This document shows, piece after piece, positions 5,421 to 28,547 of a stretch of 28,547 nucleotides of DNA. A program made the translations under genes and the position numbers. The notes under the pieces are model-generated. The model saw nothing but the letters and a program-made list of their open reading frames with translations. It was not told the DNA's origin and searched no databases. This stretch comes from a virus. Location of the stretch: IMG/VR virus record IMGVR_UViG_3300030102_000972, positions 1 through 28,547 of that record. One strand, written 5' to 3'. Each line of letters begins with the position of its first letter. The stretch's first letter is position 1.

Positions 5421-6034
5421 TGCCAGTACCAACCTCAGAATTACAGAAGATTAATCCGAGTGCTGTTATTGAGCTGTTTGTATTACAACTTAATTCAAAC
5501 CTACATGGAACAAGTACAGGTATTCCAACAGCTAATAACGAAACTAATATTTTCAGATTTCACAATGGAACTGATGCAGTTACTACAGGCGTAAATGCTT
5601 TTAATGAAATTCATTGGAATGGTAAAGTTTATGCAAGATTGCCAATAGAAGCTACAGGTTTTGAATATACCTCTAAACAAAATCCAAGACCAACACTTAC
5701 AGTTAGTAACTTATTTTCAACTATATCAACAATATTGGCGAGTGTTAATACAACAACACCTGGTAATGATTTAACAGGTGCTACTTTAGTGAGAATAAGA
5801 ACAATGCTGAGATATTTACCAAATGATAATTTTACTGGTAATAATCCATATGGTACACCTGATAATACACAAGAATTTCCAAGAGAAATTTTTACAGTCG
5901 CTAGAAAATCTCTTGAAACTAAAAATGTATGTCAATTTGAATTAGCAAATACAGTTGATCAACAAGGAGTAAAATTACCAAAAAGAAGATTTTTACCTGA
6001 CGAGTTTCCTGGAATTGGAGATTTTTTTGGATAA
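5420..6034 (+). CDS. Minor tail protein L-like, lacking the cysteine-rich C-terminus
   Basis: This 204-residue protein matches lambda gpL: 'NPSAVIELFVLQLNS' near the start, then 'IHWNGKVYARLPIEATGFEY' and 'PRPTLTVSNL'. In lambda, gpL carries a C-terminal domain with four cysteines that binds an Fe-S cluster. Here only one cysteine is present in the whole protein (in 'NVCQFELA') and the chain ends at 'FPGIGDFFG', so that domain appears to be missing. It remains a tail-tip hub protein between M and K, coupled by TAATG overlaps. Confidence 0.87.
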   Translation: MPVPTSELQKINPSAVIELFVLQLNSNLHGTSTGIPTANNETNIFRFHNGTDAVTTGVNAFNEIHWNGKVYARLPIEATGFEYTSKQNPRPTLTVSNLFSTISTILASVNTTTPGNDLTGATLVRIRTMLRYLPNDNFTGNNPYGTPDNTQEFPREIFTVARKSLETKNVCQFELANTVDQQGVKLPKRRFLPDEFPGIGDFFG

Positions 6035-10300: not shown

Positions 10301-13023
10301 GAGATGATGGTGGTCGTTTCAGCACAACAGCAGCTTCAGTAGTAGCAACAATCAATCTTCCCTCTGTTATTCAAAATGTAACTGTCACCCAAGAAAACGG
10401 AATATTACAAATCAGATGGACGAAACCAGCCACACATTCTTTTAACATCAAACACTATAAGATTTCCTACACAACATCTAGTACAACTACTGTTTTTGAA
10501 GATACCACTGAATTTAACATACCTATTACTTTTACTGGTAGCTCAAGGACATTTACAATTCTTGCTGTTGATATAGGAGGCAATGAAGGGACTGCACATA
10601 ATGAAACGGTTACAATACCAATGCCAGCCGCACCACTTAATTTTGATAAAGAATTTACAACAGATTCAGTAAAACTAAAATGGGAAGAAGCTGCACCAGC
10701 AAGTCCACTTACACCACCTGTAATCGGTTATAGAATTTATAGAGGTAATAATGTAACAGATGAGATAGCACAAATAAAAGCTACTGAATTTCTTGTGTTG
10801 GTTAATAATAATAGCTTTCCAAATAGGGTAAGTACTTATCATGTCGCTGCTGTATTTCTTGATCCTGTAAACTCTACAAAGGGACTTGCTTCAACAAATA
10901 GGGCTACAATTACAAATTTAGAAATAATACGTGCACCAGCACCAACAATTACACAATCATTTGAATTAGATTTTCTTATTTTATCTTGGAGTGCTGTTAA
11001 TGGATCTTTACCGACATTAAATTATGGAATATATGACTTGCCGCCTACTAATGTTGATACATTGATAGAGCAAACTGATACAACTACATTTAAAACAAAA
11101 GCTAATTTTCCTATAAATTCATCTAACGGAAAACCAGAAAAACTTTTCAAAATAGCTGGTTTAAGTGCTGCATATCATAATGCTACAGATGCCCTAGTTA
11201 AAGAAGTATTTAAAGGTTTAGTTGGCAGTATTACTGCAAGTGTTTCACTTCCAAGTGTGCCTACTTATGTAGGAGGTTCTCAGACTAATAGTATAAATTT
11301 AGGTTCTGAAGGTGGTCTTGGTTTTGTTACTATTTCTTTTGTTGCTGGCACTGTAGACCCTGCAACACAACTAGGTTTAAAGGATTTTAGAATTGTTAGA
11401 AGTCCATCTTCTACTTTTGCAGGTATAAATTTAAATAATGCAGACACATTAGAAATTTTTACAGATGCTTTAACATTCAAAGAAGAGGTCAGTTGGAGTA
11501 TTCCTGATAATAGTACTGATACATCAATTTCAAGATATTATTATGTTCAGGCAAGAGACCTATTGAACAATATTGGAAGTGCCTTACAAATAGAAGTAAC
11601 AATTAATAGACCTTCTACAGTTCCATCTGAAGGTATAAGTGAAGTGATAGATAATAACGTATTACTTAGATGGGGACAGCCACCCGTTAATGCAAATAAT
11701 CAGTTAAAGATAGATCATTATGAAATAAGAAAACATACTGGAAACAATACAAACTGGTCAACATCAACTGCATTAGGTGGTAGTGGTGAATCTATAACAG
11801 ACTCAAGATTTAGCGTAATTTTTGAAACTGTTGGAGCGCAATATACATATTTGATCAAAGCATATGATGTTGCTGGTAATTCTAGTCTTTTACCATTAAC
11901 AACTTTACTTGAAGTAGCAGAACCGCCTGATTTTGTTCTTAATGCAAATTATAATTCAGCATTTAGAACTGCATTAGGGACATATACACAGTCAGGAAAT
12001 ACTGTAGAAGTTACATTGTCTGAACATAGATTTAAAGTGGGTGATTTAGTTACTCTTTTCCCTACCTCTGGAGGTGCTGTAGGTGATTTACTAAATCAAA
12101 GACCAGTAACATCTGTTTCTAGTGATCCAGCTTCATTAGCACAGCACAATAAATTTACAGTTAATTCTTTTGTATCAAGAAATGTAAGCACTTCTAATAT
12201 TACAGTAAAAACTATTACAGGTCTTACAGAACCAGCAGAGGTTGATTCTGTTGGCTTTACGAATTGTTTAAAAGTATTTGATGAAGCACTAAATAGAAAT
12301 GTAATTTATTTGCCAGTGGTTACAAATTCTGATGGAGTTGGAACACAGACATGGACAGAACATTTTGTAGGTACAGGGTCTAATGCAAGTCCACAGTTTG
12401 CGAATATTACTGCAATAATTAACGCAGGATTAACTGAATATTTAGAACCAGCACCGATTGGAAATGCTGGAAAAGGTATATATGAAGAAGTTTTTGATTA
12501 TGGCACAAACTTAGCATCTACGAAAGTTAACGCATTATCAACAAATTTAGCGGAAGGGACATTGGCTGCATCAGGTCAAAATCCTGTAAATCTGACATCT
12601 AAACTACAGATTGCATCTGGTGATTCAGGAGGTAGTTTTGATACAGGTGTGACAGCCAACGGAAACTCTGTTTCAAGATTTGGTGTTGGTTTGCAAAGAG
12701 TAAAATATACTACTGAGGCTGTATCTACTGCTGGATCTCTTACGAAAATAACAAATGTTCAGTTTAAATTAGACACAAAAATTAAGAATGATACTGGAAC
12801 TGGAACCGCAAATGCAAGTGATAGCGGGGGTACTCAAGTAAACTTTAATGTTAGTTTTATAGATGTACAGGGAATAGCAGTAACTCCAAATACAACATCT
12901 GCTGTAATAGCTGTTGTTGATTTTCTTGATGCTCCTAATCCTACCTCATTTAAGGTTTTACTATATAATACGAGTGGGACGAGAGTTTCAGGCGATTTTA
13001 CTTGGCAATGTAGAGGAACTTAA
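7348..13023 (+). CDS. Central tail tip / host specificity protein J-like, with fibronectin-like repeats
   Basis: This 1891-residue protein is the tail-tip receptor-interacting protein. The N-terminal hub part (residues 1 to about 770) begins with a Gly-rich leader and 'KVNILDAISEGEIEGF', a hallmark of J proteins, and includes 'IKTRIPSSGVVSS' and 'WNTCPAWALYDLLTDDRYG'. About seven fibronectin type III-like repeats follow (starting near 771, 887, 1005, 1091, 1194, 1301 and 1419), each with a Pro-rich start and an 'L.W' strand. The rest (about 1524-1891) is unlike lambda and probably faces the host. Two divergent copies of a small beta module with 'GT(W/Y)TQ...H...TSG' are visible, one inserted in the hub (about 371-455) and one near 1540-1618. 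Confidence 0.9.
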   Translation: MSNKQVIIIGEKGKGGGNSSPTTAEDSLNSTAKVNILDAISEGEIEGFDTAREEGHAQGNANYLSAMQKDIFLDDTPILRKEANSVSPATTDFNFQGISLAERRGTASQTVIPGFDSTQTETAVGHVFNLKDEVATRSSSSQNVDQLRITINIPQLQEFEDDGDIVGSEVKFLVFVAFDGASFPAETEANADLNITITGRTGDLYQKDFLININHINYSSSFSIKIKRLTDTAETKVINTFVWFSFTEIIWDNNTYDNTALLGLSANADSFSSIPKRTFFLRGIKTRIPSSGVVSSVSQAGKNAGRINYNTNLWDGSFQAATWNTCPAWALYDLLTDDRYGLNIPESALDKYSFFAISKYNNELVSDRRVSSGTMTGTWTQNANEKFITVTTALVHNLQTDDFIDITFTSGQVNSAPSNQAYIVQFLSTTVFRLLNINTAPTTNISGACSFLRQGNEVRFALNAYINKSYEAYDLINLICSNMRVMPFWSAGQLFLSQDKPTTPSYLFTNANVIEGNFTYEGSDVKTRSTLVIVKYFDNIQRKISYVQDPPKASVASDSAIQKYGIVEKSIEGFGITSAGQASRLARWVRFSEQNLTETVTFVVSLDSGVIVRPGQVIAINDSVKTGVRRGGRIKSVPTNTTNKIVVDDASASDLPANGVSYTRTLNVLMPDGSVSSNTISDITGSTITVSGQFTMAGVNTAPNPNSVWIIETSGGTSAQNIQNSLYRVISVTEENGINYKVTGLTYNESAYAHVEAGADVQYRDATNLNELPTAPTSVTITERLYKEVINQNGIINANEKITNKGKVKVKLIVNWTQVKGVVNYKVLFRKDNGNFQSVVVQGVDFEIPDVQAGKLYEFKVFSLNGANNESPTSANATRTTVGKTDPPSNVSGLTATVDPIAGVILSWTENAPNPAGFTGTDVEFKDLDIAYYEIHKVTGGAGTSITDSNFGDLGASTFVTRDQAPDTVTGNYPAATTSYFIKARDDGGRFSTTAASVVATINLPSVIQNVTVTQENGILQIRWTKPATHSFNIKHYKISYTTSSTTTVFEDTTEFNIPITFTGSSRTFTILAVDIGGNEGTAHNETVTIPMPAAPLNFDKEFTTDSVKLKWEEAAPASPLTPPVIGYRIYRGNNVTDEIAQIKATEFLVLVNNNSFPNRVSTYHVAAVFLDPVNSTKGLASTNRATITNLEIIRAPAPTITQSFELDFLILSWSAVNGSLPTLNYGIYDLPPTNVDTLIEQTDTTTFKTKANFPINSSNGKPEKLFKIAGLSAAYHNATDALVKEVFKGLVGSITASVSLPSVPTYVGGSQTNSINLGSEGGLGFVTISFVAGTVDPATQLGLKDFRIVRSPSSTFAGINLNNADTLEIFTDALTFKEEVSWSIPDNSTDTSISRYYYVQARDLLNNIGSALQIEVTINRPSTVPSEGISEVIDNNVLLRWGQPPVNANNQLKIDHYEIRKHTGNNTNWSTSTALGGSGESITDSRFSVIFETVGAQYTYLIKAYDVAGNSSLLPLTTLLEVAEPPDFVLNANYNSAFRTALGTYTQSGNTVEVTLSEHRFKVGDLVTLFPTSGGAVGDLLNQRPVTSVSSDPASLAQHNKFTVNSFVSRNVSTSNITVKTITGLTEPAEVDSVGFTNCLKVFDEALNRNVIYLPVVTNSDGVGTQTWTEHFVGTGSNASPQFANITAIINAGLTEYLEPAPIGNAGKGIYEEVFDYGTNLASTKVNALSTNLAEGTLAASGQNPVNLTSKLQIASGDSGGSFDTGVTANGNSVSRFGVGLQRVKYTTEAVSTAGSLTKITNVQFKLDTKIKNDTGTGTANASDSGGTQVNFNVSFIDVQGIAVTPNTTSAVIAVVDFLDAPNPTSFKVLLYNTSGTRVSGDFTWQCRGT

Positions 13024-19266: not shown

Positions 19267-19527
19267 ATGAATCAGAATCTACAACGATTATCAGTGCAGA
19301 TTACAAAACATCAATACAACTTATTGAAGCATCATACTAAACCAGGTACTTCTATCTCTTCTCTCGTAAGAGATGCTCTTGATGATTTTTTTAGTGAAGC
19401 GGACCAAACTCTTGGCGAACAAGCTATTGAAAATGTTAAATATGAAGAGTATGAAAGATACATGGCTGCTCAACAAGCAGCAGGTATTAAAGAACCAGCA
19501 ATAGCTGATGCAAGTTCTATTTTTTGA
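19267..19527 (+). CDS. Ribbon-helix-helix DNA-binding protein
   Basis: This 86-residue protein begins with a short strand ('LQRLSVQIT') followed by two helices ('KHQYNLLKHHTKPGTS' and 'ISSLVRDALDDFFSEAD'), the ribbon-helix-helix (Arc/CopG) fold that works as a dimer and reads DNA through the strand. The remaining acidic helical tail may bind a partner. It is a clear paralogue of the 48-residue protein at 27440: both start M-(N/S)-QNLQR-(L/I)-SV and share 'PG.SI..L.R..(L/I)..F'. It likely acts as a transcriptional regulator. Confidence 0.78.
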   Translation: MNQNLQRLSVQITKHQYNLLKHHTKPGTSISSLVRDALDDFFSEADQTLGEQAIENVKYEEYERYMAAQQAAGIKEPAIADASSIF

Positions 19528-25952: not shown

Positions 25953-26645
25953 TTAAAATAACTCCTGTTTTGATTCAAACTTTTCCCATGCTTCTTGCCA
26001 TGCAGCAAGACATCTTTCAGTAGGCTGTTCATTATTTAAAATACACCTACCTTCATAAGCCCAAATCGTATTGCATACATCTGGGATTATCCCATAGTTT
26101 AGTTTCAACATTTCAATGTAACAACCTAACTGTTTATCAGTTAGATAAGGTTCTTTCCAATACATATCAATATCTTCAAGATGAATCATGCCATCTTTAC
26201 CACGTTTCCTGATGTCATACTTTGAATTACCTTTGGTTTTTAAATCAATTAGTCTGATCTTCTTGGCCTTAGTATCGTATCCAAGTAAATCAAGCTGACC
26301 GCCAACTGATTTATCTGGTATAGACATCATAAGTTCCACAGCCATTGGTTCAAAATGTGTGAACAGTTCATGTTCAAGCAATGGACCAACCCATGCTTCA
26401 TAATCACCTGCATCAATCTCTCCACTGCCGAGCATTGTTTCCTGTAGACATTCATGCACCTTAACTCCTCTAGGCTCCCAGATATACCTGTAAGCTTCAA
26501 TGTTTTCTTTTGCTTCTTCTGTTAGCTCATTACAGACTTCTGTTGTAGAAAAAGCAAGCCATCTTTGATGTGTCTCATCAAAATATTTATGAGTCTCCTG
26601 ATCTCTGAAGATAGCGAGTGGTTTTAATAATTCGATAGTTTTCAT
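25953..26645 (-). CDS. Cas4/RecB-like PD-(D/E)XK exonuclease
   Basis: This 230-residue protein shows the RecB-type nuclease signature: His64 in 'KVHECLQ', 'GGQLDLLGYD' with Asp119, 'IRLIDLKTKG' with Asp134-Leu-Lys136, and 'KQLGCYIEML' giving QxxxY (Gln172, Tyr176). Such enzymes resect DNA ends with metal ions. In phages they commonly pair with a single-strand annealing protein, here ERF in the same operon. It starts in an ATGA overlap with the ribbon-helix-helix/replication-like gene. Confidence 0.82.
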   Translation of the reverse strand: MKTIELLKPLAIFRDQETHKYFDETHQRWLAFSTTEVCNELTEEAKENIEAYRYIWEPRGVKVHECLQETMLGSGEIDAGDYEAWVGPLLEHELFTHFEPMAVELMMSIPDKSVGGQLDLLGYDTKAKKIRLIDLKTKGNSKYDIRKRGKDGMIHLEDIDMYWKEPYLTDKQLGCYIEMLKLNYGIIPDVCNTIWAYEGRCILNNEQPTERCLAAWQEAWEKFESKQELF

Positions 26646-27169
26646 AATTGACCTTCCATAAGTTCTTTAGCAGTTTTACCCATTTCAGCAAGTGTTGGTG
26701 GTAAATCATTATCACTGGCCTTAAAATATCTGGGCTTAAATTCTGGCTCTTCTGGTTTATAGGATTGCTTCAATGGAAATAAATCCTTCCAGCCACCTGC
26801 TATAGCGTTCTCAAGAGCTTGTTTTCTATCTTGTGTAGGAAATGACCTTAACTTCTTAAAAATGCGTTCAGCAACGCTTGTAGTGCATGATCCACCTTTT
26901 TTCTTTCTGATAGGCCACCATTCAATTAAAAGATCAGCATATTCTTTTAAATCATCAGGTATCTGATTGGTGGTAATTGTAGAAGATGAAAATGGGTCTA
27001 GTTCTGTTGAAAATGGATTCTTCTTAGCTTTTCTTCTGGATTCGACATTCATCTTGTCTCTTATCAAGTTTCTGACAACAGCAGATACTTTCAGTTCTGG
27101 ATTTGTTTTGGAATCAAGCCAAGCAATTTGTTCATGCTCCAAATACAACGTAAGTTTTTCTTTTGGCAT
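26642..27169 (-). CDS. Ribbon-helix-helix protein with a replication-organiser-like C-terminal domain
   Basis: Residues 1-41 look like a ribbon-helix-helix domain ('KLTLYLEHEQIAWLDSKTN' then 'VSAVVRNLIRDKMN'). After a linker (about 45-70), a second domain has 'LLIEWWPIRKKKGG', 'AERIFKKLRSFPTQDRKQAL' and 'AIAGGWKDLFPL'. This recalls the 'W..YP.K..K..A...F..L......ILEA....W' pattern seen at the C-terminus of phage replication initiators and helicase loaders. It is first in the operon, facing the AT-rich control region. A role in replication start or in operon control is inferred. Confidence 0.6.
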   Translation of the reverse strand: MPKEKLTLYLEHEQIAWLDSKTNPELKVSAVVRNLIRDKMNVESRRKAKKNPFSTELDPFSSSTITTNQIPDDLKEYADLLIEWWPIRKKKGGSCTTSVAERIFKKLRSFPTQDRKQALENAIAGGWKDLFPLKQSYKPEEPEFKPRYFKASDNDLPPTLAEMGKTAKELMEGQL

Positions 27170-27190
27170 AAGTTTATGTCTTTGTATGTA

Positions 27191-27219
27191 AGTGTATTAA
27201 TGATTATTTATCTTGTCAA
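27191..27219 (-). promoter_or_regulatory. Strong sigma70-type promoter of the DNA-metabolism operon
   Basis: On the - strand TTGACA (27219-27214, exact consensus) and TACACT (27196-27191) are spaced by exactly 17 bases. The start would be near 27184, leaving a short leader of about 15 bases to the ATG at 27169. No Shine-Dalgarno is obvious in that leader. It is the best promoter in the window and probably an early one. Confidence 0.75.
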
Positions 27220-27235
27220 CTAAAAATTCTTTTCC

Positions 27236-27345
27236 TTATACATACATATATGTATTTATATTATATATATTATTATATATATTAATAATAAATATATTTA
27301 TATATTATATATTCTTTTTCTTTTGGTTCTTTTCTTTTTCTTAAA
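27236..27345. other. Extreme AT tract with palindrome, tandem 12-mer and pyrimidine run (possible origin/unwinding element)
   Basis: Bases 27253-27313 are 61 consecutive A/T bases. Just before lies a 14-bp perfect palindrome ATACATATATGTAT (27242-27255). Inside are two head-to-tail copies of TTATATATATTA (27261-27272 and 27273-27284). Bases 27312-27342 are almost pure T/C. The tract is flanked by a strong promoter on one side and phased direct repeats on the other. It could be a DNA-unwinding element of a replication origin or an AT-rich divergent control region. Confidence 0.5.
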
Positions 27346-27348
27346 ATC

Positions 27349-27440
27349 GCCATTCAAGATAGAAAAAAGCCATTCAAGGATCAAAAAAAGCCATTCAAGG
27401 ATAATGTGATATTATGTTGATATATAAATGCCATTCATTA
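27349..27440 (+). repeat. Phased direct repeats GCCATTCAAGGAT upstream of a ribbon-helix-helix gene
   Basis: Copies start at 27349 (GCCATTCAAGAT), 27369 and 27390 (both GCCATTCAAGGAT) and 27430 (GCCATTCATTA). The spacings are 20, 21 and 40 bases, that is two and four helical turns, so all copies face the same side of the helix. The last ends at the first base of the ATG at 27440. The place where a fourth phased copy would lie is taken by a -10-like TGATATTAT. This fits an autoregulatory operator array or iterons. Confidence 0.75.
27407..27415 (+). promoter_or_regulatory. Candidate extended -10 promoter within the repeat array
   Basis: TGA followed by TATTAT (27410-27415) is an extended -10 in the gap between the third and fourth repeats. 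The start would be near 27422, about 18 bases before the ATG. TATAAA at 27423-27428 is an alternative that would give a nearly leaderless message. Confidence 0.4.
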
Positions 27441-28418: not shown

Positions 28419-28524
28419 TTAATTCTTGTAATTGGAAAGTACTGGACTTACATAAACAATTAGCTACCTTGTAAAACAATCGTTACCCTATCATTTAATG
28501 CCAGTTAATTAATTAGTGATTATC

Positions 28525-28539
28525 ATGAGAATTTCTCAT
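28525..28539. repeat. 15-base inverted repeat ATGAGAATTTCTCAT
   Basis: Seven-base arms around one central base, in the intergenic sequence upstream of the small-gene cluster and close to the window end. It could be an operator half-pair. A T-run follows on the + strand, but the hairpin is too short (five safe pairs) to call a terminator. Confidence 0.3.
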
Positions 28540-28547
28540 AGCTTTTT

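Follow-up and report, generated by a model that had tools for sequence, protein, structure and literature searches.

The virus record IMGVR_UViG_3300030102_000972, which is classed as linear, was analysed over its entire length of 28,547 bases, referred to here as the window. Its tail protein is most similar to those of the Prochlorococcus siphoviruses MED4-184 and MED4-117. The host type is assigned, by sequence similarity, to Prochlorococcus, because in the single-cell genome Prochlorococcus sp. AG-418-M08 a contig of 41,291 bases carries a relative of the window's O-like gene, at 59% identity. The region under study lies between this O-like gene, which heads a leftward operon continuing into exonuclease, methyltransferase and ERF annealing genes, and a small rightward gene encoding a ribbon-helix-helix (RHH) protein; the likely start codons are ATG 27169 and ATG 27440, respectively. 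The features of the region are as follows.

26642..27169, minus strand: O-like replication initiator of 175 amino acids, first gene of the leftward early operon, with a phrog_678 match
27191..27219, minus strand: promoter of the O operon, TTGACA-17-TACACT
27227..27239, plus strand: block TTCTTTTCCTTAT, of moderate conservation, on the left side of the A/T tract; relatives show AAAATTCTTYTCYTTAT or AAATTCTTCTCTATATCC (read from intergenic sequences)
27242..27255: 14-bp palindrome ATACATATATGTAT
27253..27313, no strand: 61-base A/T tract, candidate DNA unwinding element, where A/T content per 100 bp peaks in the record
27312..27342, plus strand: homopyrimidine mirror repeat, an H-DNA-type motif, with arms at 27312-27324 and 27330-27342 and the loop GGTTC at 27325-27329
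27349..27356, plus strand: GCCATTCA site 1; most relatives have this site 8-10 nt to the right of the mirror repeat
27369..27376, plus strand: GCCATTCA site 2
27390..27397, plus strand: GCCATTCA site 3, where the -35 element of the RHH promoter would be expected
27407..27415, plus strand: TGATATTAT, read from the sequence as a putative extended -10 for the RHH gene
27430..27437, plus strand: GCCATTCA site 4, directly 5' of the RHH start codon
27440..27586, plus strand: 48-amino acid RHH protein (CopG/Arc type, Pfam RHH_1), a probable autorepressor

Related loci were chosen only by similarity to the O-like protein and were made non-redundant, with one phage record included; 68 of them possess enough DNA upstream of the O-like gene. 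In all 68, the TTGACA promoter is followed by the A/T tract and then by the mirror repeat. An initial annotation of this DNA had reported a near-consensus promoter on the minus strand, and both hexamers are indeed present in the window (TTGACA at 27219-27214, a spacing of 17, TACACT at 27196-27191). Promoter-like matches are no more frequent in the window than chance would produce (9 observed, 14.7 expected), so the case for this promoter stands on conservation: an exact TTGACA with a spacing of 17-18 nt is found in 68 of 68 relatives. Sequence and conservation together show the leftward O-like operon to be under a strong promoter. The palindrome, likewise reported initially, is present and is not obviously retained in distant relatives.

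The initial annotation also described 61 consecutive A/T bases, and this run was confirmed. The next longest A/T run in the window is 22 bases, and the longest obtained across 300 dinucleotide shuffles is 32. The 70 bp to the left of the mirror repeat average 95% A/T among the relatives, yet are only 49% identical between loci, indicating that composition is kept rather than sequence. In five long genomes (28-41 kb), no other 100 bp is as rich in A/T as the tract. In this phage group, many IMG/VR contigs have one of their ends at or near the tract, at most ~100 bp from the O-like start (L124, L125, L126, L127, L128, L131 and L140), which suggests that assemblies break there.

What had been called a pyrimidine tract proved to be more than that. 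Positions 27312-27342 read TTCTTTTTCTTTT-GGTTC-TTTTCTTTTTCTT, a perfect mirror repeat of 31 bases with 13-base arms. It is the sole homopyrimidine or homopurine mirror repeat in the window with arms of at least 11 bases, and 40 shuffles produced no homopyrimidine example of that arm length. Among the 68 homology-selected loci the inner T runs of the two arms are T4/T4 in 63, T5/T5 in four and T6/T6 in one; thus, in the five loci with a longer run, the left and right arms are lengthened equally, and no asymmetric arm variant occurs in the set. Substitutions are confined to the loop, which reads GGTTC, GCTTC or GTTTC. Loci fetched by pattern scans are biased towards symmetry, and among the matches listed for a looser pattern, in which each T run was free to vary, there was likewise no asymmetric member, the single exception, in the unrelated record L291, being a spurious overlap. 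Had the left arm and the right arm each changed in five loci independently of one another, the chance of their falling in the same loci would be 1 in 10 million, a figure that treats the loci without regard to kinship. With kinship thus ignored, the pattern in the 68 loci indicates that mirror symmetry is under selection. No other part of the region is as well conserved as the mirror repeat with its two covarying arms, and the initial annotation overlooked it.

It is barely credible that chance, slippage on pyrimidines or a biased composition produced the repeat and the A/T run as functionless, low-complexity artefacts. The motif is rich in T and of low complexity, and pattern searches of millions of contigs also yield unrelated polypyrimidine stretches. 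This explanation is, however, already contradicted by the fact that every one of the 68 homology-selected loci carries the mirror repeat, even where the adjacent A/T tract is so divergent; moreover, slippage would alter the arms independently, and the shuffles gave no such repeat. Two other assignments were rejected: the repeat forms no hairpin and sits between divergent promoters, unlike an intrinsic terminator, and the reading frames across it are not conserved, as they would be in coding sequence.

The definition of H-DNA motifs in PMC11879447 demands mirror arms of at least 10, a spacer below 8, more than 90% pyrimidine and less than 80% A/T. The window element, a homopyrimidine mirror repeat with arms of 13, a spacer of 5, 94% C/T and 77% A/T, fits this definition and resembles the motifs surveyed in prokaryotes (PMC4060949, PMC4666352). 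In the papers searched such motifs are treated by genome statistics or in eukaryotes; unlike in those surveys, a single element is here fixed at one site within a phage clade, and its arms covary. We found mirror repeats at phage origins described in no paper. The two arms change together as would be expected if the repeat folds into triple-stranded DNA. Counting against the triplex reading, the 13-bp arms are short. C+.G-C triads disfavour a triplex at neutral pH, and each arm would contribute two to three of them. Whether intramolecular triplexes serve any function in the living cell has long been debated, mostly on the strength of genome statistics. In this case phages of a cyanobacterium that is abundant in the ocean have a 31-bp element fixed at a single defined site, and its natural variants alter both arms together, so that symmetric and asymmetric mutants can be compared directly.

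To the right of the mirror repeat, the initial annotation had listed four direct repeats, and these were confirmed: exact copies of GCCATTCA start at 27349, 27369, 27390 and 27430, with no other exact copy in the window, and in 40 shuffles no 8-mer with at least three G/C bases reached four copies within 90 bp. The helical phasing claimed for them holds for the window, where the spacings are 20, 21 and 40 bp; it does not carry over to the relatives, in which the dominant spacing is 49-52 bp (34 of 55), or ~4.8 turns. Nor is the number of copies conserved, as it ranges from 0 to 4. In 40 of the 50 RHH-bearing relatives the last site of this type lies 8 nt before the RHH ATG, and another lies ~50 bp upstream, so that most of the 50 have sites at 8 and ~58 nt before the start codon, as operator repeats would. 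At the position of the putative RHH -10, relatives carry TATTAT, TATATT or TATACT. The 48-residue protein itself scores 23.7 bits against PF01402 (cut-off 20.5), placing it among RHH domains. The proposal of a regulatory switch involving this gene is thereby strengthened, in that the positions of the repeats point to likely operators at its own start.

The initial annotation had also raised the possibility that the GCCATTCA copies are iterons of a replication origin. An iteron-type origin, with the repeats bound by the initiator and aligned along one face of the helix, is unlikely here. The repeats do adjoin the A/T tract near an initiator gene, and most relatives, including some with other right-side genes, have one GCCATTCA-like site 8-10 nt from the mirror repeat. 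The sequence comparison nevertheless suggests that the copies fit autorepressor operators better than iterons, because they vary in number, with a dominant spacing of ~50 bp, because they bracket the RHH promoter, and because the right-side DNA covaries with the RHH gene and not with the initiator head. As in small phage autorepressors of the Arc/CopG type, the promoter and start codon of a small RHH gene are surrounded by operator-like repeats; in contrast to those systems, the putative operators here are direct 8-bp repeats, ~50 bp apart in most relatives. When viral contigs were scanned for the pattern GCCATTCA-N-GCCATTCA, the matches listed were mostly unrelated. A second RHH-type protein, of 86 amino acids, is encoded at the end of a rightward operon (window 19267-19527, plus strand), and its N-terminal part is 40% identical to the 48-residue protein. 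Elsewhere in the window, the non-coding right end (28440-28547) contains a hairpin-plus-T stretch (ATGAGAATTTCTCATAGCTTTTT), possibly a terminator.

The leftward gene product belongs with the O-family initiators found at lambda-type origins: phrog_678, annotated as 'replication initiation O-like', matched 15 of 15 aligned homologues, in the C-terminal part only. The product of the gene at 26642..27169 probably begins with an RHH head (residues 4-50), and its C-terminal region (residues 64-142) is helical and O-like. Predicted helices at residues 12-21 and 28-50 precede a helical bundle, and alignment of the head with the 48-residue RHH family covers 41 columns with an hhalign E-value of 0.0022 and a probability of only 13. 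Because that probability is low and Pfam does not call an RHH domain in the head, we hold the RHH pattern with moderate confidence. Pfam also finds no helix-turn-helix head in the O-like protein of the window or in its 14 homologues. A search with the predicted structure gave no significant PDB match, and in BFVD one close homologue (91% identity) and nothing informative; comparison of the head with solved structures led to AvtR at an E-value of 0.28, which is not significant. The Synechococcus phage KBS-S-2A shares the C-terminal part of the initiator (42% identity), and MED4-184 and MED4-117 have a similar tail gene. The initiators of MED4-184 and, weakly, of KBS-S-2A differ in having a helix-turn-helix head according to Pfam, and all three genomes differ in that none has a mirror repeat with 11-base arms. 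Among the records found, the phage group considered here has no cultured member.

The most A/T-rich DNA of a genome, when it lies beside an initiator gene, is typical of origins. Part of the origin suggested initially, the unwinding element, gained support, since the A/T tract next to the O-like replication gene is kept in all relatives. A minimum of GC skew, the other sign looked for, lies ~5 kb away where gene direction switches, since skew in this genome follows gene direction. An iteron array is likewise missing in or next to the O gene, where one 12-nt pair is the only repeat family in 26642-27220. A packaging site was considered for the region and set aside; in one relative (G003) the terminase gene is ~5.9 kb away.

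The closest working parallel is the origin of phage lambda, and of Stx phages, which uses an O initiator, requires an A/T region for unwinding, and unwinds only when supercoiled (PMC7466680). Both systems have an A/T-rich region with an O-family gene alongside in an early operon. Lambda, however, carries its iterons, 4-6 copies of a 19-bp inverted repeat, inside gene O (PMC7466680), whereas here the O gene has none, the A/T tract lies outside the gene, the O head looks like an RHH domain, and a homopyrimidine mirror repeat is added. The present region, with an adjacent A/T-rich unwinding candidate but neither iterons in gene O nor a helix-turn-helix head, is therefore not of lambda type by membership.

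We give about as much credence as doubt to the reading that, in a group of Prochlorococcus siphoviruses, this strictly conserved region serves early control and probably also as the replication origin, an H-DNA-type element lying next to the unwinding tract; both origin function and triplex formation are what we infer from the comparisons above. Under this model, the 48-residue RHH protein would bind GCCATTCA and repress its own gene. The O-like protein, its RHH head replacing the helix-turn-helix head, would bind the promoter-proximal DNA that covaries with the head and would recruit the replicative helicase. Under negative supercoiling, fed into the same stretch by transcription from the O promoter, the A/T tract would melt and the mirror repeat would flip into an intramolecular triplex; the triplex would absorb supercoils and leave the purine strand single, allowing the helicase to load beside it. 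More tentatively, the mirror repeat could be a natural H-DNA element kept by selection at a phage origin, opened together with the A/T tract and serving O-type initiators with RHH heads. For this phage group, the region supplies a candidate origin that is open to experiment, together with an initiator whose DNA-binding head has apparently been exchanged.

A possible, if somewhat doubtful, alternative is that the region serves transcription control alone, with divergent promoters and RHH operators, while replication starts elsewhere; the A/T tract and mirror repeat would then be a bent or supercoil-absorbing spacer, whether H-DNA or not, or the site of a DNA-binding protein of host or phage by which the two promoters are insulated. 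The element does lie between two divergent promoters, and the lack of iterons and of a skew minimum agrees with this explanation, as does the occurrence of the core outside the group. The same 31-base core is present in unrelated viruses that have no O-like gene, once within an exonuclease-like coding frame and intergenic in several others, in part between divergent genes; the motif is thus not origin-specific. On the other hand, a single asymmetric protein site would not call for a mirror-symmetric sequence whose two arms change length by the same amount, and the A/T-richest DNA of the genome beside the initiator gene speaks for an origin.

The two sides of the region behave as modules. In the 46 loci having both O-like and RHH genes, similarity of the O heads correlates with that of the O-side DNA (partial r 0.80) and RHH protein similarity with that of the right-side DNA (partial r 0.46), the cross terms being low (0.03 and 0.19); the O-head correlation may be mere linkage of neighbours. 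Across these loci the tract and the mirror repeat remain, and the flanking sides are exchanged. It could be argued that the mirror repeat is itself a recombination junction, kept as a landing sequence around which a left cassette (O head and promoter) and a right cassette (RHH or RNA gene and operators) swap. The different combinations of O-head types and right cassettes across loci, and the same core in unrelated viruses, agree with such a role, which we nonetheless regard as very improbable, since a crossover sequence needs neither mirror symmetry nor joint arm change and the A/T tract is left unexplained.

In some relatives, a conserved non-coding RNA-like element of 200-250 nt with an intrinsic terminator replaces the RHH gene to the right of the mirror repeat (L144:3503-3713, minus strand; L211:6653-6873, minus strand; L286:5442-5658, plus strand; and 29 more relatives, the window not among them). 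Its 53 predicted pairs include 16 with compensatory changes, 99.5% of cells are paired, and none of 500 shuffles was as good. The element has no Rfam match, and on these comparative grounds looks like a new structured RNA family; Rfam gave no match in the window or in four relatives either.

An unrelated phage (L382, record G005) holds two copies of the core, at 5771-5805 and 10660-10700, with mirror arms extended to 15 and 18 bases; one falls within an exonuclease-like frame, the other shortly before a start codon, and the core may be mobile or have been selected more than once. Longer homopyrimidine mirror repeats of 44-62 nt, with loops ACCT, ACTC or GTCC and T-run lengths matched between the arms, were found among the matches listed (L187, L205, L208, L210, L216, L269, L277, L278, L200, L247 and others). 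The device thus extends beyond this origin and may have a general role, as a supercoil sink or in transcription or replication control, and homopyrimidine mirror repeats heading early or recombination gene blocks may be a recurrent phage device. In the loci whose gene content around the longer repeats was read, several of these repeats separate the lysis genes of other phages from NinG/ERF/SSB genes.
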